Source: a virus
DNA length: 29,080 bases
IMG/VR virus record: IMGVR_UViG_3300010354_000434
Coordinates: 1-29,080 of that record
Reading direction: 5' to 3' (one strand)
Part shown: in pieces, positions 9,421 to 29,080 of the stretch
Layout: each line of letters starts with the position of its first letter
How positions within the stretch are numbered: the first letter of the stretch is position 1
Translations under genes and position numbers: made by a program
The notes under the pieces: generated by a model
Database searches by the model: none
What the model saw: the letters and a program-made list of their open reading frames with translations, nothing else
What the model was told of the DNA's origin: nothing

Positions 9421-10173
9421 TTAAATTAAACCATTTTTAAGTTCTAATAACTTATAATAGTTATACCTTGATGATTTTGTTTCATCTACTTGTTTTTTTA
9501 CATTCATAAGTTTTTCAGTCAAAGAATCATCATTTGATTCACTTAAAATATTTTTTATTTTATCAGATAATTCTGATTTAATTATATTCATTTCTTCTAA
9601 TAATTTTTTTTCATCCATAGATACAATTTTTTTAAATGTTTTTTTCTGTTCTTCATTTAAAAAATCACCGTATTTAATATTGAAATTGTTTACTAAAACA
9701 TTATTCAGTAAAGAAAAATTTTCAATTTGAACATTTGAAATATCATTTGTTTTAATTTCTTTTTCTTCAGTTAAAAATTTAATAAAATTTTCTTTAGACC
9801 GGAATTTTTCATTAATATTATTAATATTATGTTCTTCAGATATAGAATCCAACCATTCGTATAATTCATTCTTTTCAGAAACTACGTCTTTTAATATTTT
9901 ATTTAATTTTTTACAATCTGAGTTTATTGATTTCATTTTTTCAATGAAATGAGGTTCTAAAGTTTCCACAAATAATCTGGCATTATCTTTCTGTTGGATA
10001 TAAGTTGTTTCCATATCTTCATAAAACTTATAAACCTCGACCAAATTTTTATTAGATTTTAATTTTTTAATTAAATCTAATAATTCTTTTCGATTACCAG
10101 AATTATATGATTCTGTCAATTTAACCAATAATTTTGTTTTTAATTCACCAAATTTTACCATATTATTTTTCAT
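9421..10173 (-). CDS. Unknown helical protein downstream of portal
   Basis: Not recognised; up to 250 residues, almost entirely predicted helix and coiled coil. Segments include KLLVKLTESYNSGNRKELLD, YKFYEDMETTYIQQKDNARL, SDCKKLNKILKDVVSEKNEL and LTEKLMNVKKQVDETKSSRY. The first ATG (10173) overlaps the portal end by 11 bases. The ATG of Met5 (10161, MVKFGELKTK) starts just past the portal stop and is an equally good choice. It is the last gene of the terminase-portal unit, ahead of a terminator, in the slot of T4 gp67. A prohead core or head-completion role is possible but rests only on position and helical composition. Confidence 0.8.
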   Translation of the reverse strand: MKNNMVKFGELKTKLLVKLTESYNSGNRKELLDLIKKLKSNKNLVEVYKFYEDMETTYIQQKDNARLFVETLEPHFIEKMKSINSDCKKLNKILKDVVSEKNELYEWLDSISEEHNINNINEKFRSKENFIKFLTEEKEIKTNDISNVQIENFSLLNNVLVNNFNIKYGDFLNEEQKKTFKKIVSMDEKKLLEEMNIIKSELSDKIKNILSESNDDSLTEKLMNVKKQVDETKSSRYNYYKLLELKNGLI

Positions 10174-13100
10174 TTAAAATGTTTTTTAATTTATTTTCTA
10201 TTTCATAAATATTATTTTGTGCTTTATTTATGTCAAATAAATCACTTAAATCATCACCATCACCTAACATATTTAATATATTTCTTTTCTTTGTTGATTC
10301 TGCTAATGGTTCCGATCCGCCTGAAGATGGTGGAGGTACACCACCCATATCCATACCACCACCAGCAGCTTCACCAGATGATTGCCCTTGTTCTAATTTT
10401 TCTCTTTCTTCTTCGGGAATACCGTATTTTGAATCAACATCATCAAATACACCTGAACGTTTAATAATTGTCGATGTATTTGTTAATTCAAATCCCATCG
10501 CCCTTTCTAATCTTTGTTGTTGCAAATCAAGTAAAACTTCACTATCACTCATACCTAGAATATTCTTTTTTGCCCAAGTGTGAGAAACCGGTAATATACC
10601 AATTTGTGAATTATCGGATGTTGCGTCTTTATATAATAATATTTTTTCCTTCCATTGTTCAATTCTTAATAAATCAGATTGTGCGGATGGATTAGTTAAA
10701 GAAAGTGTAAAATTGTCTAATTCATCTTCCATACCAAGAAGATAAAGATGCATCAATGCGATTTTATTTAATTCCTGAACTAATGATTTTTGTATTCTAT
10801 TGATTGTTCTGGCAAAACGAATATCCATCAATGCTAATTGTTTTCCATCACCTACTACATCCTCAAATCCTAAAAAAGCTTTAGGTATACGAAGAGCAGA
10901 CAACATTTTCTTTTGAATATATTCAATATCCGCGATTTCTCCTAAATTTTGTGCTCCAGCTAAAGTTTCAATTGGATTTGTTTGAGACGGGTCTCTAATT
11001 GGTATAAAATAATCTTGGTCTACTGCCATTTGATTATATCTCATATCTATTTGACCATTTCTAGAATCTACTACTTGGTCTCTTTTGAATTTACTTGCAA
11101 CACGTTGTACATATGCTTCAATATCTTTATCGTCCATATTACCTACAAATACTTTAAAAACTCTTCTTTCGGGTGCTCTGGTGTTGTGTACAGGAATATT
11201 ATTCGCAATAAAATTATGTTCCTCATGTTCTACACTAATGTCATAAACTTTTTCTTCACCCCATTCTGATATGTTAATAATATTTTCAGTTAAGGGGGTA
11301 ATTAATTCACTAATCGTAACCTCATATGAATAAGTTTCTTTTATTCTACGACCAGATTCAATTTCATGACCACCTTCTCGAAAACGTGTTTTGATATGAC
11401 CTGAATTTAACCCCATTCCTGACCATAGTTCTTTAATATCTTCAATAAGTTTTTTATTACACAGGGCGATTGTAGTGAACATTGTTCCTTTTGGTGTGTG
11501 TCGAATACATCCGTCAGCATCCATTAAACCCTCCATAAATGATTTTTTAATATCGTATTCTTGTTGAAATACCCATTTTGGAATTCTTTTATTGTGTGCC
11601 CCTTTTATATAACCTAATTCAATTAAAATATCTTTTAATCTTTTAGAACTAACTGAGTATGATGTGTATTTTCTATTATTACTGACATTGAGTGATATTC
11701 TATATTCGTATTTTTTAAATAATTGATAATATTTTTCATTAACTTCTTCATCACTTCCTTCGGCAAAACCTACAACATCACCTGAAATAAACCCATCCCC
11801 TATCATGAAACCAAAAAATTTAGCAAAATCAGCATCAACATAATCAGGTAAGTTTAGTGTGTTTGGTTTAATTTCACCTTTAGTGTATGTCACTAAATGT
11901 GTTGGTTGAATATTAAACTCTTCACAAACCATCAATGCAGTTAAATGAGGTAACCCTTTAATTCCTTTACCACCATACAAAAATTGTCTAATCTTTATTA
12001 TATCCCCACATTTTCTCATTTTTTCGGAAATGGAATCGTTAAATTTTTGAGACCTAAATTCACCCACTCCTTCTTTTGTTAAATAAGAATAAAGAATATC
12101 ACCATTACGATTAATTTTTTTTGGTATTACGGGTAGATTATTAACATTAGTATTAATTAATTTATGTTTTTTAATCATTAAGTCTTTTGCGTCAACATAC
12201 TTTAACACATCTCCATCCTGAACTAAAATTGGGTGGGTTTCTGTGCAAATAATTTCATTATGTAAAGATTTTATTTTCAAAACTTTTTTAATTCCATTAT
12301 CTTTAACGTAGGTGACTTTATTCGAGATAAGGTTTTGACTTTTATCAAAGCTTAAAATAGTGTCACCTTCTTGAATATCTTTTATGTATTTGTAACCATC
12401 GATGGTCCTTACTCTTGTGTCACCCACTAAACATGTTCTATAAATTAACATAGCGTCTTCAGCTAACAGTAATTGTTTCCAAATTCTTCTAATTTTATCT
12501 AACATACTTGTTCCGTATGGTAATTTTCTATCATCACCTAATAATCTAAAGTGTGCAATTTCCCATGCTTGAAATTCTAATTCTTTATTCGTCCATTGGA
12601 ATCTTAATTCTCTTGTTGGTATTTTTTCATTTCTTTGATTTGGTGACTTGGATTCTCTACCTTCTATTCTTTCTATTTCAATGTTAGGTAATTGTTGACA
12701 ACCGATAATACCTTTTTCAGGATCTATTTTTAGATAAACAAAATTATCACCATATTTACAAACACCTCTAGCCCACATTTGTAAATTAGTATTTAAATCA
12801 AGTCTATTTATAAATAGATCTTCTAAAATTGATTTAACTCTAGAAGATTCAGAAAAAATTGTTAATATATCACCTTTTTCTGAAAGTGTTGTTGACTCTT
12901 CAGCGTATATATCCAATGCTGCTGATATTTCTGGTGTGAACTCCATACTTTCATAATCGTAATACGCTGACAATCTATTCGGTTCATAATATACTGATTG
13001 ATTATAAAGTGATTGTTCTAATTTAGTCCATTTATCCGCAATATATTGTGTTTGTTGTGCTTGTAATATTGCTTTTTCATATTCTTCCCTACTATTTGTT

Positions 13101-13216
13101 TTTAGTATTTCATCTTTTGAAAAATTAAATGATTGAGGTTCCTGTAAATTACTTTTATCAGAAAACCCAAACATTCTGGTTAATTTTTGAAATACTGTTA
13201 GATTATTATCCGCCAT
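10163..13216 (-). CDS. 20: Portal protein, T4 gp20-like, interrupted by an intein
   Basis: Forms the dodecameric portal vertex through which DNA is packaged and the tail attaches. The precursor is 1017 residues; removing the intein (residues 262-678) leaves about 600, near T4 gp20 (524). Portal features include YYEPNRLSAYYDYESMEFTP, EISAALDIYAEE, WARGVCKYGDNFVYLKID and LPYGTSMLDKIRRIWKQLLL. After the intein come RAPERRVFKVFVGNM, YFIPIRDPSQTNPIETLAG and DIEYIQKKMLSALRIPKAFL. The intein interrupts the highly conserved IYR-(x)-RAPERRVF stretch. The mature C-terminus has a Gly/Ser/Pro-rich linker (GEAAGGGMDMGGVPPPSSGG) before a final helix. The start MADNNLTVF follows a clear AT-box. It is cotranscribed with terminase. 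Confidence 0.94.
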   Translation of the reverse strand: MADNNLTVFQKLTRMFGFSDKSNLQEPQSFNFSKDEILKTNSREEYEKAILQAQQTQYIADKWTKLEQSLYNQSVYYEPNRLSAYYDYESMEFTPEISAALDIYAEESTTLSEKGDILTIFSESSRVKSILEDLFINRLDLNTNLQMWARGVCKYGDNFVYLKIDPEKGIIGCQQLPNIEIERIEGRESKSPNQRNEKIPTRELRFQWTNKELEFQAWEIAHFRLLGDDRKLPYGTSMLDKIRRIWKQLLLAEDAMLIYRTCLVGDTRVRTIDGYKYIKDIQEGDTILSFDKSQNLISNKVTYVKDNGIKKVLKIKSLHNEIICTETHPILVQDGDVLKYVDAKDLMIKKHKLINTNVNNLPVIPKKINRNGDILYSYLTKEGVGEFRSQKFNDSISEKMRKCGDIIKIRQFLYGGKGIKGLPHLTALMVCEEFNIQPTHLVTYTKGEIKPNTLNLPDYVDADFAKFFGFMIGDGFISGDVVGFAEGSDEEVNEKYYQLFKKYEYRISLNVSNNRKYTSYSVSSKRLKDILIELGYIKGAHNKRIPKWVFQQEYDIKKSFMEGLMDADGCIRHTPKGTMFTTIALCNKKLIEDIKELWSGMGLNSGHIKTRFREGGHEIESGRRIKETYSYEVTISELITPLTENIINISEWGEEKVYDISVEHEEHNFIANNIPVHNTRAPERRVFKVFVGNMDDKDIEAYVQRVASKFKRDQVVDSRNGQIDMRYNQMAVDQDYFIPIRDPSQTNPIETLAGAQNLGEIADIEYIQKKMLSALRIPKAFLGFEDVVGDGKQLALMDIRFARTINRIQKSLVQELNKIALMHLYLLGMEDELDNFTLSLTNPSAQSDLLRIEQWKEKILLYKDATSDNSQIGILPVSHTWAKKNILGMSDSEVLLDLQQQRLERAMGFELTNTSTIIKRSGVFDDVDSKYGIPEEEREKLEQGQSSGEAAGGGMDMGGVPPPSSGGSEPLAESTKKRNILNMLGDGDDLSDLFDINKAQNNIYEIENKLKNILNEK
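11183..12433 (-). mobile_element. Intein with LAGLIDADG homing endonuclease in the portal gene
   Basis: A 417-residue in-frame element (precursor residues 262-678). It begins with Cys262 (CLVGDTRVRTIDGYKYIKDI, splicing block A), has block B NEIICTETHPILV with Thr and His, and ends VYDISVEHEEHNFI...IPVHN with the penultimate His and final Asn678. The next extein residue is Thr679. The endonuclease domain shows two LAGLIDADG motifs, FFGFMIGDGFIS (Asp474) and FMEGLMDADGCI (Asp568); both acidic catalytic residues are intact. All splicing residues are present, so it should be active both for protein splicing and for homing into intein-free portal genes. Confidence 0.95.
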
Positions 13217-13275: not shown

Positions 13276-16200
13276 TTATTTTTTTCTTTTAGAGAATAAC
13301 CAAGAAAATTCTTTATAATTATCTTTAGTTGGTGTATTTAAAAAATAATTATTATCAGGATTATTCATTTGTAATGCGCCAATTGAATCAAACGCAACAC
13401 CATATGAATAAAATGATTTTTTTGTTTCATATGTTCTTTCAGATAATGTCCAAGATTCTAACATTGCTTTATTCGCATTTTCATTTTTTTCCAACTGATT
13501 AAAACACATATCTGCAGCATACAATGCCATTGATAAACTCATTATTGAATCATCATGATGTCCTTTCATATGGTCTGGTCTTCCGTTAATATATACAAAT
13601 GTGCTTAATTCATTTAAAAGTCTAGAAGATCTAACCTTGAAATCTTTTCTTAATTGTTCTTCAAAAGCGGCAATAATTTGAGTTCTTTTATTATTAAAAT
13701 TAATCCCCGGAATTTTATCCAAAGATTTTCGATTGTATTCCCAAATATTTTTTGTATTTACCCCATCAATATATAAATTCTTATAATTCATTTCTTGTAA
13801 TTTTCTTGATGTTGCAATCCCCATACCACCCGTGATGTCAACAACAATAAATGCTTCATAAAGAACACCCCACTTATAACATATAGTGGCTAAATCATCT
13901 GGAGGTATTTTACCAATATATTCAGCAACTTGTTCCCGTTCATCAAAATCTATAATATTGATTGATGAAAAATCTTCACTATCTCCCCGGCTAACATCGC
14001 AACCCATTATATATCTATGTCCTTGAATAGGTTCTTTCCATTGCCAAAAAGTACCCTGCATATATTTTTCTTTTGGTTCTCTTATTAAATTTTTTGATAT
14101 GTTTTGTTGTACACTACCAGGAATTACACCATCACCAGACCCTAAAAAATCTGCTTCAAGCTCTTGTGAAATCTTACGTCTATCGTATTTAAATTTTTTA
14201 GACATTGATTCAAACCATGAAGAGAAAGGTTTATACCCCATTTCAATATAGTCATTATATTTTTCAATATCAAAATCGTACATAACCACTTCATCATCAT
14301 TATATCTTTCTCTATTTAACATATAATCACATATATCTGTACATTTTACCCATCTTAAATCTTTAGAATAACGAGGATCTTTAAACCATCTTAAATCAGT
14401 TACATGAAAATTATTTAATTTTCTAACGGATTGTTCATAAACACCGTGATATATAGGGTCAAATCCATTGGGTGTTGAAATTAATATAATTTTTCCTCCT
14501 GTATTATGTGAAATAATACTATTACTTATAAAAGATGAACCATCAGGTATTTCCAAATCATAAGTATAATCTTCAAATGTTTCTATATTTATAATTTCTT
14601 CATAATAATAATTTAGTGATTCTTCGTATCTTTTTATCCATTTTAATAAAGTATTTTTATTTTTTAAATTCTTACTGATTAATTTTTCATAACTATGATA
14701 TGAAATATGATTACCATTTTTTCTCATTAATATATCAAGAAATCTATAACTTTTTTCATATTCAGTTCTGGTGATATTGTTTTCTTTTAGAATTGTTTTT
14801 AATTCATTTTTATTTGCGGATATATATATTGAATTTTTTATTTTGTTTATAAAAAATTCTTTTTTATTTTGTTTACGTTCTAATCTAAATCCTATTTCAT
14901 TATAAAAATGAGGTATAAATTCATTTTTAATAAAAAGATTGTAAATTTTAGTTATATGATTTTTATCTTTTAAAATAGATGTTTTTGATGTTTTTTGTTC
15001 ACTATATCTAATATATGATCTAACTCCAAAATTCGATAATAATATTTGTAATTGATTAATTAATTTTTTTGATGTAGAAGAGTATTTTATACCGTTTTTA
15101 AACACACAACCATCCCCATCAAACATTCCTTGTAAAAAAGATTTTATTACTATTTTAGATGATTGTAAAATATAATTAGGTATTTCTTTATCTTTTGCTA
15201 TTGTTTTTTTCATACCCACATATTCAAAAAAGAATCTTTGTAAATAAGACGAAGTATAATAAAAATGATTTTTTCTATTTTTAATAAAACCAAAATCTAA
15301 AAGAAATTTCTCAATATCAATATCACCATTACATATTTGTATAGTATTTTTTGAAAAACTACCTTCCGCAATATATAACCCCATCAAATATGGTAAATTT
15401 AAATCATCAGAAAGTTTTTTTGGTAATTTATATTTTTCATTTTCATTTCCATGTTTTAATGGAAAGACAATTTCGTTATCTTCTCCGAATAAATTTTGGT
15501 TATATTGTATTTTAATTTTATCACCCAATTTTAGATTTTCCATCCATTCCCATTCGTCATCACCATCTTTATTTGTTAATAATGGATGTTTATAAGAACC
15601 GATTAATTCAAAACCACTTTTCGTTTGTATTTTATAACATTTAGATTTTTCAGATTTAAATGTATTTTTTATATTTGTTATTTTTAAATCTTTATTAATT
15701 ACTTTTAAATTTCCATTATATTTTGTAAATCCAATTTTTTCTTTTTCTACCACAATATCTTTCAATTGAATTAATCCATTATTTGTTAATATATAACTAT
15801 CTTCATGAACACATGATAAAGACGCCATGGATGCTGCCCAAAAATCGTCTCCCGCTTCAATATATGCTGCTTCATCGAAAATAAGTATAGTTGGTGTATA
15901 ACCACGTAACGCATCGGCTGATGTCGCTACCGCTTTAACTTCACAACCATTATTTAATCTAAATCTACTTTCTGAGTTTTTATCAACAGAGAATCCTACA
16001 TTAATCCAATCAGGCCATTGGTCAAGGAAATGGCGAATTTTATTCGCCATTTCAATTGCAGTATCTCTTTTATTTGCAATAACAAGTACCCTTTCTGGGT
16101 TCTCTGGTTTTGCTATTTGTAATCTTCTAGATATCCAAGCCGCAGTAACTGTTGTTACACCCGCTTGTCTATATTTTCTTGTTATATTTTCATTATATTT

Positions 16201-16359
16201 TTCATAATCATTTATTAATTGTATTTGATCAGGAAATAAATCTAATGGGACATATTTTTTTTGTGTATTATCATATGTCGTTAAATACGTTTTTAATGCA
16301 TAAGGAGCATCTTTTAATATACGGACATATTCTCTTAATTGTATTATTTTATCATCCAT
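13276..16359 (-). CDS. 17: Terminase large subunit, T4 gp17-like, interrupted by an intein
   Basis: ATPase and nuclease that pumps DNA into the prohead and cuts the concatemer. I choose ATG 16359 (MDDKIIQLREYVRILKDAPY). The upstream in-frame ATG at 16395 lies inside a terminator hairpin. The precursor is 1027 residues; without the intein it is about 590, near T4 gp17 (610). The Walker A equivalent is KYRQAGVTT (about residues 62-70), with Val where gp17 has the P-loop Lys. Walker B is ILIFDEAA with the catalytic Glu163. The C-motif is ILISTPNG. The RuvC-like nuclease has MGCDVSRGDSEDFSS (Asp788), VVDITGGMG (Asp841) and KGHHDDS (Asp936/937). The intein splits the ATPase domain between Walker B and the C-motif. 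The gene starts the portal transcription unit. Confidence 0.94.
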   Translation of the reverse strand: MDDKIIQLREYVRILKDAPYALKTYLTTYDNTQKKYVPLDLFPDQIQLINDYEKYNENITRKYRQAGVTTVTAAWISRRLQIAKPENPERVLVIANKRDTAIEMANKIRHFLDQWPDWINVGFSVDKNSESRFRLNNGCEVKAVATSADALRGYTPTILIFDEAAYIEAGDDFWAASMASLSCVHEDSYILTNNGLIQLKDIVVEKEKIGFTKYNGNLKVINKDLKITNIKNTFKSEKSKCYKIQTKSGFELIGSYKHPLLTNKDGDDEWEWMENLKLGDKIKIQYNQNLFGEDNEIVFPLKHGNENEKYKLPKKLSDDLNLPYLMGLYIAEGSFSKNTIQICNGDIDIEKFLLDFGFIKNRKNHFYYTSSYLQRFFFEYVGMKKTIAKDKEIPNYILQSSKIVIKSFLQGMFDGDGCVFKNGIKYSSTSKKLINQLQILLSNFGVRSYIRYSEQKTSKTSILKDKNHITKIYNLFIKNEFIPHFYNEIGFRLERKQNKKEFFINKIKNSIYISANKNELKTILKENNITRTEYEKSYRFLDILMRKNGNHISYHSYEKLISKNLKNKNTLLKWIKRYEESLNYYYEEIINIETFEDYTYDLEIPDGSSFISNSIISHNTGGKIILISTPNGFDPIYHGVYEQSVRKLNNFHVTDLRWFKDPRYSKDLRWVKCTDICDYMLNRERYNDDEVVMYDFDIEKYNDYIEMGYKPFSSWFESMSKKFKYDRRKISQELEADFLGSGDGVIPGSVQQNISKNLIREPKEKYMQGTFWQWKEPIQGHRYIMGCDVSRGDSEDFSSINIIDFDEREQVAEYIGKIPPDDLATICYKWGVLYEAFIVVDITGGMGIATSRKLQEMNYKNLYIDGVNTKNIWEYNRKSLDKIPGINFNNKRTQIIAAFEEQLRKDFKVRSSRLLNELSTFVYINGRPDHMKGHHDDSIMSLSMALYAADMCFNQLEKNENANKAMLESWTLSERTYETKKSFYSYGVAFDSIGALQMNNPDNNYFLNTPTKDNYKEFSWLFSKRKK
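14503..15813 (-). mobile_element. Intein with LAGLIDADG homing endonuclease in the terminase gene
   Basis: A 437-residue in-frame element (residues 183-619 counted from ATG 16359). It starts with Cys (CVHEDSYILTNNGLIQLKDI), has block B ELIGSYKHPLLT, and ends DYTYDLEIPDGSSFISNSII then SHN, with Thr as the next extein residue. LAGLIDADG motifs are YLMGLYIAEGSF (Glu332) and FLQGMFDGDGCV (Asp416), so both metal-binding acids are present. It is more AT-rich and Lys/Asn/Ile-rich than the flanking terminase exteins, which suggests independent arrival. It is not a close copy of the portal intein. Confidence 0.95.
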
Positions 16360-16375
16360 ATTTTTAATATATAAA

Positions 16376-16400
16376 AAAAGGTGGTAAAAAACCACCTTTT
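16376..16400 (-). terminator. Intrinsic terminator upstream of terminase
   Basis: The stem AAAAGGTGGT / ACCACCTTTT is perfect over 10 bp with a 5-base A loop; on the minus strand it leads into a T tract. It ends the 16424-19877 gene group and isolates the terminase-portal unit. Confidence 0.9.
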
Positions 16401-21531: not shown

Positions 21532-23547
21532 ATGGCAGTAGATTATTTTGATGAAAATCAACAAACATCCTCTAAAAGAGGTAAAAAGGGGTCTAGAACA
21601 CCGATTCTTGATAATTTTTCAAGGGATTTAAACAAATTAGCTGAAGAAGGTAAAATTGACCCTATTATTGGTCGAGAATCTGAAGTTAAAAGAATTTCTC
21701 AAATTATTTCAAGAAAGAAAAAAAACAATGTTGTAATTGTAGGAGATGCTGGTGTAGGTAAATCGGTGTTGGTTGAAAAATTAGCACTATTGATTGTAAA
21801 AGGAGAATGTCCTCCAAATCTATTAGATAAAAGAATATTATCATTAGATTTAACCTCATTAGTTGCCGGAACAAAATATAGAGGTCAATTCGAAGAAAGA
21901 ATTAAAGCTGTATTAAACGAATTACAAAACGAACCCAATATTATTGTATTCATAGATGAATTACACACAATGGTTGGTGCTGGTAATGCAACAGGTTCTA
22001 TGGATGCTGCTAATATTTTAAAACCAGCTCTTGCTCGTGGTGAAATACAATGTATAGGTGCAACAACATTTGATGAGTATAAAAAACATATTGAAAAGGA
22101 TGCTGCTTTAGTTAGAAGATTTCAAAAAATAATTCTAAAAGAACCAAGTAAATCAGAAACTATTTTAATCTTAAACAACCTAAAAGAAGTGTACCAAAAT
22201 TATCACAAAGTTGTTTATAGTGACGGTGTAGTAGAAAATATTGTTAATTTATCCTCACAATACATTACTGATAGACAATTCCCAGACAAGGCTATTGATA
22301 TATTAGATGAACTAGGTTCAAACAAAAAAATTAATATTAAGATTCCAGATTCAATTGAACAATTAAAAAAAGAAGTGGATAAGATAAAAGAAAATAAATT
22401 ACAAGTTGTAAAAAATCAAAACTATGAGTTAGCAGCTAAGCTCAGAGACGAGGAGAAAAAGATTTTAACTAAACTTGAGAATGAAAAAGATAAATGGACA
22501 CAAAAACAAAAAGACAATTTAATACCAATTGTTGTGGATGATGTTTATCAAATTATTTCTGACATAACAGGTATCCCGATATCTAAATTAGATAATGATG
22601 AAACTGAGAAATTATTAAAGCTTGAAGAAAGACTTTCTTCTAAAATTATTGGTCAGAATGATGCAATTTCAATTATATCTAAATCAATAAGAAGAAATAG
22701 AGTCGGAATAAAAGAAAATAATAGACCGATTGGTTCATTTATTTTCGTAGGATCTACAGGTGTTGGAAAAACTTTTTTAGCCAAAACAATTGCTGAGGTT
22801 GTCTTCGGAGATCCGAATAAAATGATTCGTGTTGATATGAGTGAGTTTATGGAAAAACATAACGTATCTCGTTTAATTGGATCACCTCCAGGTTATGTTG
22901 GTCATGATGAAGGTGGTCAGTTAACCGAAAAAATAAAAAACAATCCATTTTCAGTTATTCTATTTGATGAAATCGAAAAAGCACATAAAGATGTGTATAA
23001 CATTTTACTTCAAATAATGGATGAAGGTCATCTTACCGATTCTTTTGGTAGAAAAGTAAATTTTACTAATACAATTATAATCATGACATCTAATGTTGGT
23101 GCTAAAAAAGTAAATGATTTTGGTAATGGTTTAGGTTTCGTCACATCTTCTAGTGAATCTCAAAAACTTGAGGTTAAAAAATCAATTATACAACAATCTT
23201 TAAAGCAACAATTCACTCCAGAATTTTTAAATAGAATTGATGATATAATTTTATTTAATTATTTAAATAGTGATGATATTAGAAAAATCATAAATAATGA
23301 GTTAATTAAATTGGTAAATAGATTAACTGAAAAAAATTATCAAATATCTTTTGATGAGAGTATTCATGCAGAAATAATGAAGTTAAATACATTAGAAGAA
23401 TATGGCGCAAGACCAATAAAAAGGATTATTCAAAATTTATGTGAAGATTTCTTATCTGACGAAATTTTAAAAGGTAATATAAAAGAAAACATACCAGTAA
23501 TTTTAAAATTTAAAAATGAAAAAATAGAATTTTCAAAAATAAAGTAA
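21532..23547 (+). CDS. ClpC/ClpA-like AAA+ protein unfoldase lacking the N-domain
   Basis: Hexameric Hsp100 ATPase that threads proteins, probably into a ClpP protease. The 671 residues hold two AAA+ modules. The first has Walker A GDAGVGKS (71-78), Walker B VFIDELH (139-145), pore loop KYRG (115-118) and the Arg pair LVRRF (195-196). A short middle domain carries a UVR-like motif, [14 protein letters not shown]. The second has Walker A GSTGVGKT (407-414), pore segment [13 protein letters not shown] and Walker [12 protein letters not shown]. Length equals ClpC (about 820) minus the ~150-residue Clp-N domain, which is absent: residues 1-25 are a short basic tail. NGLGFVTS (534-536 LGF) sits where ClpA/ClpC carry the ClpP-docking tripeptide. 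ClpB is excluded by the short middle domain. The start [11 protein letters not shown] follows AAAAACAAAAACAA. Confidence 0.93.
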
Positions 23548-28527: not shown

Positions 28528-28950
28528 GGGGGTGAATTAGAATCGATTGGCGTTGGTATTGTAAGTAGGCACGTAGTCGGATTTCATCTACGACTTTAAT
28601 AAACGGTGGAAACAATTAAACGGAGACGTTTACAAAAACATGGAAGTTGTTGGTTTACTATCAACTTCTAACGTGGAAGTAGCCTAAGGGTAAAAAACAC
28701 AACGGGTCGATGGACATATAACCTTGGAACAGAAGTCCCTACGGTGTGATACAACCACAAAAGTGTCAAAGGTCTAGTTCAGAACTCTACCTATAAACCC
28801 ATGAAAATGGTTAAAGTGAATTCGACACAGTTATTGGTAACAATGTCAAAATAGGAACCAATTATTTGTCAGTTATGAATTAATTGAATAAACGTGTAGT
28901 CTATTTATGATATAATGAGCAAGACCTGGCGGCGGTGGCCAGCACCTCCA
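28528..28950 (+). ncRNA. ssrA: tmRNA (transfer-messenger RNA), divergent phage copy
   Basis: Ribosome-rescue RNA. The 5' end GGGGGTGAATTAGAATCGAT fits the tmRNA start. GGGGGTG (28528-28534) pairs with CACCTCC (28943-28949) in a 7-bp acceptor stem with a G3-U wobble, the alanyl-tRNA synthetase identity signal. Discriminator A28950 is followed by CTA, so CCA must be added. Helix P2 is extensive: 28556-28568 with 28901-28914, then GCACGT (28569-28574) with ACGTGT (28892-28897). T stem CTGGC / GCCAG (28926-28942) encloses GGCGGTG instead of TTCRANY. A pk1-like GTAG/CTAC stem, the hairpin AAACG-GAGA-CGTTT (28618-28631), an 8-bp stem 28642-28649/28662-28669 and a CCAT-GAAA-ATGG hairpin lie inside. 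No ALAA-type tag is found. Length is about 423 nt, usual for tmRNA. Confidence 0.85.
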
Positions 28951-28961
28951 CTAAAAAAAAC

Positions 28962-28991
28962 AAAAAAACCCACAATTAAGTGGGTTTTTTT
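28962..28991 (+). terminator. Intrinsic terminator after the tmRNA
   Basis: AAAAAAACCCAC / GTGGGTTTTTTT, 12 bp, loop AATTAA, directly downstream of the tmRNA 3' end. The T-rich arm forms the U tract. The remaining bases to 29080 are AT-rich with no gene visible. Confidence 0.92.
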
Positions 28992-29080
28992 GTTTGTACA
29001 TATTAAATTTTTATTAAATTTATATTTTTTATTATTATCTTATATTATATAAATAAATATATAGATTTATAATAAAAAAG

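Follow-up and report, generated by a model that had tools for sequence, protein, structure and literature searches.

The phage and its relatives

The tmRNA gene near the right end of the window, the whole 29,080-base viral record analyzed here, raises the question of which reading frame it adds to stalled proteins, and what becomes of those proteins. The preliminary description listed three competing readings: (a) Gly-Asn-Asn-stop, (b) a frame open from GGA at 28622 to TAA at 28685 and ending Glu-Val-Ala, and (c) a reading that follows TAGTC. All three are present in the sequence, and frame conservation is seen for (b) only.

The window comes from a large T4-like phage; among its gene products are the portal, the terminase, a gp21-type prohead protease, and a major capsid protein (gp23) of T4-like type. 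The host is probably a member of the Bacteroidota, to judge from distant capsid matches (Flavobacterium phage immuto, 39%; Microcystis phage Mel-JY01, 40%) and the geometry of the tmRNA. The portal protein and terminase large subunit genes contain inteins with LAGLIDADG domains (10163–13216 and 13276–16395, both leftwards).

All of the relatives are metagenome contigs. A 19-base pattern from the tmRNA 5' end matches one close relative (L007), capsid and glycosyltransferase searches yield related contigs, with the tmRNA DNA matched in 14 of 42 records, and a pattern built on the opening codons of frame (b), which excludes the C-terminal end of the tag, matches 56 viral contigs. From these T4-like phage contigs, 36 distinct, full-length, intron-free tmRNAs were aligned. 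The exact pattern AACGGTGGAAACAATTAA has no match in the viral contigs, and a pattern search of a genome collection gives 16 matches, none of which encodes the tag when translated. DNA similarity to the INPHARED phages is limited to terminator-like or tRNA-like matches, and the tag family was found neither in that collection nor in the text of the open-access literature searched.

Two other RNAs were seen in these searches. In several relatives a GOLLD RNA precedes the tmRNA by approximately 0.2 to 2.5 kb (L094 8104–8509, L092 8298–8707, L093 8298–8707, L099 873–1277, and L108 1–282); none was found in the window. Other phages have permuted two-piece tmRNAs (L001 4316–4597 and L003 2472–2753, both leftwards, and L002, L004–L006, and L008), whose apparent tag, read by hand, is a long one with the ending LAV (for example, ANASKGEVTVTGKNVKFSARTAQRQPLAV).

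The tmRNA gene and its fold

The Rfam covariance model RF00023 matches positions 28528–28953 end to end (model positions 1–374) with 47.8 bits and an E value of 7.8e-18. With a gathering cut-off of 47 bits the gene is borderline for standard tools: ARAGORN does not call it, a cmscan of the whole window at the gathering threshold reports no tmRNA, and an RF00023 family search of the record loses the gene at its first filter. Ten tag-bearing relatives score 73–111 bits against the same model. The Rfam match and the 36-sequence alignment define a one-piece gene transcribed rightwards at 28528–28950, 423 nt up to the discriminator base A, after which CTA is present and CCA is not encoded. The preliminary description correctly recognized a tmRNA here and ended it at 28690; the gene is 260 nt longer at its 3' end. 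Immediately downstream lies a terminator-like hairpin (28958–28995) that the scan scored on the minus strand, although it is nearly symmetric and a U run is also present on the plus strand.

The outer structure that had been proposed is borne out by the Rfam match and by the homologues. The acceptor stem (5' strand GGGGGUG, 28528–28534; partner CACCUCC, 28943–28949; seven pairs), the end of P2, both helices of pseudoknot 1 (PK1), and the T-stem show 100% pairing across the 36 homologues. The 5' strand of P2 (28556–28574) pairs with 28892–28913, with its inner six pairs at 100% and its outer part at 79%. Two-sided changes occur at 18 of the 44 named pairs, compared with 3–8 in slid controls. 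Because 36 homologues align over their full length with paired stems, and the two-sided changes exceed the controls, the match is not a chance one; on the evidence of this alignment the window tmRNA is a genuine ribosome-rescue RNA gene.

The resume codon and tag reading frame

PK1 occupies 28575–28610 (helix 1, 28575–28579 with 28591–28595; helix 2, 28583–28588 with 28605–28610) and is followed by an 11-nt spacer, AACAAUUAAAC (28611–28621), and then by GGA at 28622–28624 with UUAAAC just upstream. In E. coli tmRNA 11 nt likewise separate PK1 from the resume codon, and A86 is the main determinant of frame choice (PMC2481249); its equivalent here, 28618, at −4 to the resume codon, is invariant in the 36 sequences. 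The spacer length and the invariant A identify GGA 28622 as the resume codon. The Gly resume codon of Flavobacteriales tmRNAs has the same offset from the 5' end (94–98 nt) and also follows UUAAAC-like letters.

The frame beginning at this codon, GDVYKNMEVVGLLSTSNVEVA*, extends to TAA at 28685–28687, and its first 18 codons are open in all 27 distinct sequences compared, whereas stops interrupt the other two frames in 11 and 22 of them. Its pN/pS is 0.29, compared with 0.75 and 2.7 for the two alternatives, and a value this low was reached by one of 200 column shuffles; these ratios count pairs of related sequences and are thus descriptive figures. In five relatives (L091, L094, L099, L151, and L163) ARAGORN calls the homologous tag, GNVYNNMEVAGLLATSKVAA and its kin, and in L123 a shortened version, ATSNVEVA. 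Reading (b) is therefore the one reading conserved as a frame.

Two hairpins are predicted in this region. One surrounds the resume codon (AAACG-GAGA-CGUUU, 28618–28631); its five pairs are kept in 36 of 36 sequences with one-sided changes only, and its loop is of the GNRA type throughout the family (GCAA, GAGA, or GAAA). The other, a P5-like hairpin (28641–28670; RNAalifold columns 115–144), would lie within the tag frame and not after it, with the stop codon 3' of the hairpin.

A lineage-specific tag

The window tag is 21 residues long and ends Glu-Val-Ala (VEVA). Tags of the family have 20 or 21 residues and follow the pattern G[ND]VY[NK]NME..GLLATS with a variable end, which is KVAA in 16 of the 36, VAVA in 13, VEVA in five, and VSVA in two. 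All thus end VAA or VxVA, in a region untouched by the search pattern. Small hydrophobic residues are usual at the C-termini of tmRNA tags. The window tag lacks the C-terminal (A)LAA of LAA-type ssrA degrons, and the preliminary description was right that an (N)YALAA-like tag is not encoded in any frame, since the tag ends NVEVA. As evidence against its proposal, that description had named a structure-based alignment giving both a normal resume codon and a tag with a known Clp-degron ending; the alignment gives the former, but with a lineage-specific ending in place of the latter. As far as comparison of these sequences can tell, the resume codon is normal, the tag is lineage-specific, and its novel ending is real and shared by the relatives.

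Flavobacteriales tmRNAs (RF00023) are the closest point of comparison, having the same G3-U70 acceptor pair, P2, PK1, 11-nt spacer, Gly resume-codon offset, and UUAAAC. Their tags differ in typically having nine residues and ending LAA or MAA at all 30 loci examined (e.g. GENNYALAA), where the phage tags have 20–21 and end VEVA, VAVA, or KVAA; the phage frame also runs through its P5-like hairpin, and the window has the T-loop GGCGGUG.

Clp and SmpB genes

A gene transcribed rightwards at 21532–23547 encodes a ClpA/ClpC/ClpB-like AAA+ unfoldase with two AAA modules and a UVR motif and without an N-terminal domain, which does not reach the equivalog cut-offs for ClpA and ClpB. By eye, it has an LGF tripeptide (VGF in relatives) in the place of the ClpP-docking loop; IGF/IGL loops of Clp unfoldases dock ClpP (PMC8138137). 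Homologues are present in 29 of the 33 tag-bearing phage records, with 67–88% identity to the window protein among the full-length matches listed. The ClpC-like gene is in two pieces in G059 (57554–61396, leftwards; one in-frame TAG) and G002 (75450–77455, leftwards), possibly as the result of an insertion, intein, or intron.

Nine of the 33 records encode SmpB; in G027, G048, and G053 its gene follows the tmRNA at a distance of approximately 0.1 kb. SmpB was not found in G037, G038, or G045, the relatives nearest to the window, and the window, a 29-kb fragment, contains neither SmpB nor ClpP. ClpP is encoded by five of the 33, exactly those longer than 200 kb (203–311 kb); its gene in G027, for instance, is at 28695–29219, and in four of these it lies 131–172 kb from the tmRNA by record coordinates, so that it is not to be expected in shorter contigs. 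Ser (AASMGS), His (MLHQ), and Asp (RDLW) stand, by eye, at the apparent catalytic places. We considered whether these could be head-maturation proteases and rejected this, as a representative phage ClpP matches the Clp protease model at 1e-67 and the head-maturation model at 3e-17, and a separate protease of the T4 gp21 type is encoded in the window (PF03420, 8176–8859).

Phages already known to carry tmRNAs include mycobacteriophages Bxz1, Wildcat and others, and Bacillus phage G. Phage Melnitz also has one (PMC9004378), and huge phages with tmRNA and SmpB have been reported (PMC7162821). As here, those tmRNAs are phage-encoded with SmpB in part, but the tag family described here was not found in the INPHARED collection or the literature searched, and is joined to ClpC-like and ClpP genes. 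Jumbo phages with ClpP and ClpA/ClpX genes, and thus phage-encoded Clp parts as here, have also been reported, in an article that does not mention tmRNA or SmpB (PMC7824862). Within the open-access literature searched, no report joins tmRNA or SmpB and ClpP or a Clp unfoldase with a private tag.

Proposed fate of tagged proteins

We hold it highly probable that the locus as a whole is a functional one-piece tmRNA that resumes at GGA 28622 and encodes a degron tag of the xVAA/VxVA type, with Clp degradation the most likely outcome. Sequence comparison shows the RNA, fold, frame, and conserved peptide; charging, SmpB use, degradation, the protease concerned, and the host are inferences. The third pair of the acceptor stem is GU in 36 of 36 sequences, corresponding to G3-U70, the alanine identity pair of tRNA-Ala; since this pair and the first alanine are kept, the window tmRNA is expected, by tRNA-Ala identity rules, to be charged with alanine. 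It would then enter stalled ribosomes with SmpB, supplied by the host for the window phage and by the phage itself in some relatives. Translation would switch to GGA 28622, adding Ala and GDVYKNMEVVGLLSTSNVEVA, with release at UAA 28685; the tag expected under reading (b) is AGDVYKNMEVVGLLSTSNVEVA. This tag would act as a lineage-specific C-terminal degron, and tagged products would most likely be unfolded and degraded, either by host ClpXP or by a phage ClpC-like/ClpP pair.

Re-routing of tagged products to a phage protease is possible, because the tag has an end typical of tmRNA tags and a ClpC-like unfoldase is encoded in the window; it is plausible, though unproven, that the phages have a tag-and-degrade route complete in itself. 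A stronger form, in which jumbo T4-like phages have a private pathway with their own ClpC-like and ClpP proteins reading xVAA/VxVA while host ClpXP reads ALAA, is one that we put forward only tentatively; if true, it would separate phage protein recycling from that of the host. It is rather unlikely that the phage tag instead spares tagged proteins by escaping host ClpXP: the tag does differ from all 30 Flavobacteriales tags, with their LAA or MAA ends, but the tags still end Val-Ala or Ala-Ala across a diverse family, and relatives encode ClpC-like and ClpP proteins. Sparing of tagged products is not indicated.

The T-loop and D-loop

The T-arm, CUGGC-GGCGGUG-GCCAG (28926–28942), consists of a 5-bp stem, 100% paired in the 36 sequences with two-sided changes at all five pairs, and a non-canonical 7-nt loop (28931–28937). 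A UUCRANN T-loop is present in 31 of the 36; the window instead has GGCGGUG, and is grouped with L007 (GGCGGUG) and L090 (GGCAGUG) as GGC[G/A]GUG. The L130 loop is AGCGAUA, and that of L114 has one extra base. The D-loop region (28535–28547) also varies, with AG in the window group and UG in L130 in place of the GG of most relatives. With numbering by analogy to tRNA, C56, R57, and G19 are retained in the window group, and the elbow pair 19–56 may persist while 18–55 changes.

The loss of UUCRANN, the D-loop change, and the borderline Rfam score could all be read as signs of a decaying RNA or a decoy restricted to the tRNA-like domain that inhibits host trans-translation, for which mycobacteriophage DS6A provides a precedent (PMC4131195; PMC11915505), and the GGCGGUG loop could weaken EF-Tu or SmpB binding. 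We consider a decoy improbable. The DS6A RNA is likewise a phage tmRNA with anomalies, but it has no tag, whereas the window tmRNA is full length with its conserved tag frame intact; moreover, the T-stem has changed twice with compensation within the GGCRGUG group (CUGGC/GCCAG in the window, CCGGU/ACCGG in L007), which argues that the stem is under selection. A functional tmRNA thus remains the preferred reading.

In a tree built without the T-arm and D-loop, the sister of the window is L116 (support 0.94), whose T-loop is canonical. An origin of the odd T-loop in one clade is therefore not clean, and accounting for it takes either two changes or an exchange of the tRNA-like domain; the topology suggests that the domain has been swapped.

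Group I introns interrupt the tmRNA T-loop in L097 (1290–1504, leftwards) and L107 (1855–2067) by Rfam match, and similar interruptions, judged from sequence, are present in L127, L133, and L161; sequence downstream of these introns may encode a putative homing endonuclease. Introns in bacterial tmRNA T-loops are known (PMC11915505). A rewritten T-loop would remove the insertion site, although to propose this as the reason for the change is a guess.

The other reading frames

Both helices of PK1 show compensatory changes, with A-U replaced by G-C (columns 52/64) and U-A by G-U or A-U (56/83). Reading (c) lies inside helix 1 and is not conserved. Reading (a), in which UAAAC GGU GGA AAC AAU UAA would give the tag Gly-Gly-Asn-Asn-stop and release ribosomes without a degradation signal, begins much as GENNYALAA does, with U-A in positions −5/−4, but is refuted by the comparison: its GGUGGA (28605–28610) is the 3' strand of helix 2, paired in all 36 sequences, it leaves no spacer between PK1 and codon, and its stop is missing in L102, L108, L120, and others, among them L116, which encodes the window's peptide.

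Implications for phage biology

The rewritten T-loop and its matching D-loop change represent natural variation of the tRNA elbow within a tmRNA. To our knowledge, phage tmRNAs have been recognized without their purpose being known; a conserved tag unlike that of the host, in a phage family of which some members also carry SmpB, nearly all a ClpC-like unfoldase, and the largest ClpP, makes phage re-routing of stalled proteins directly testable.
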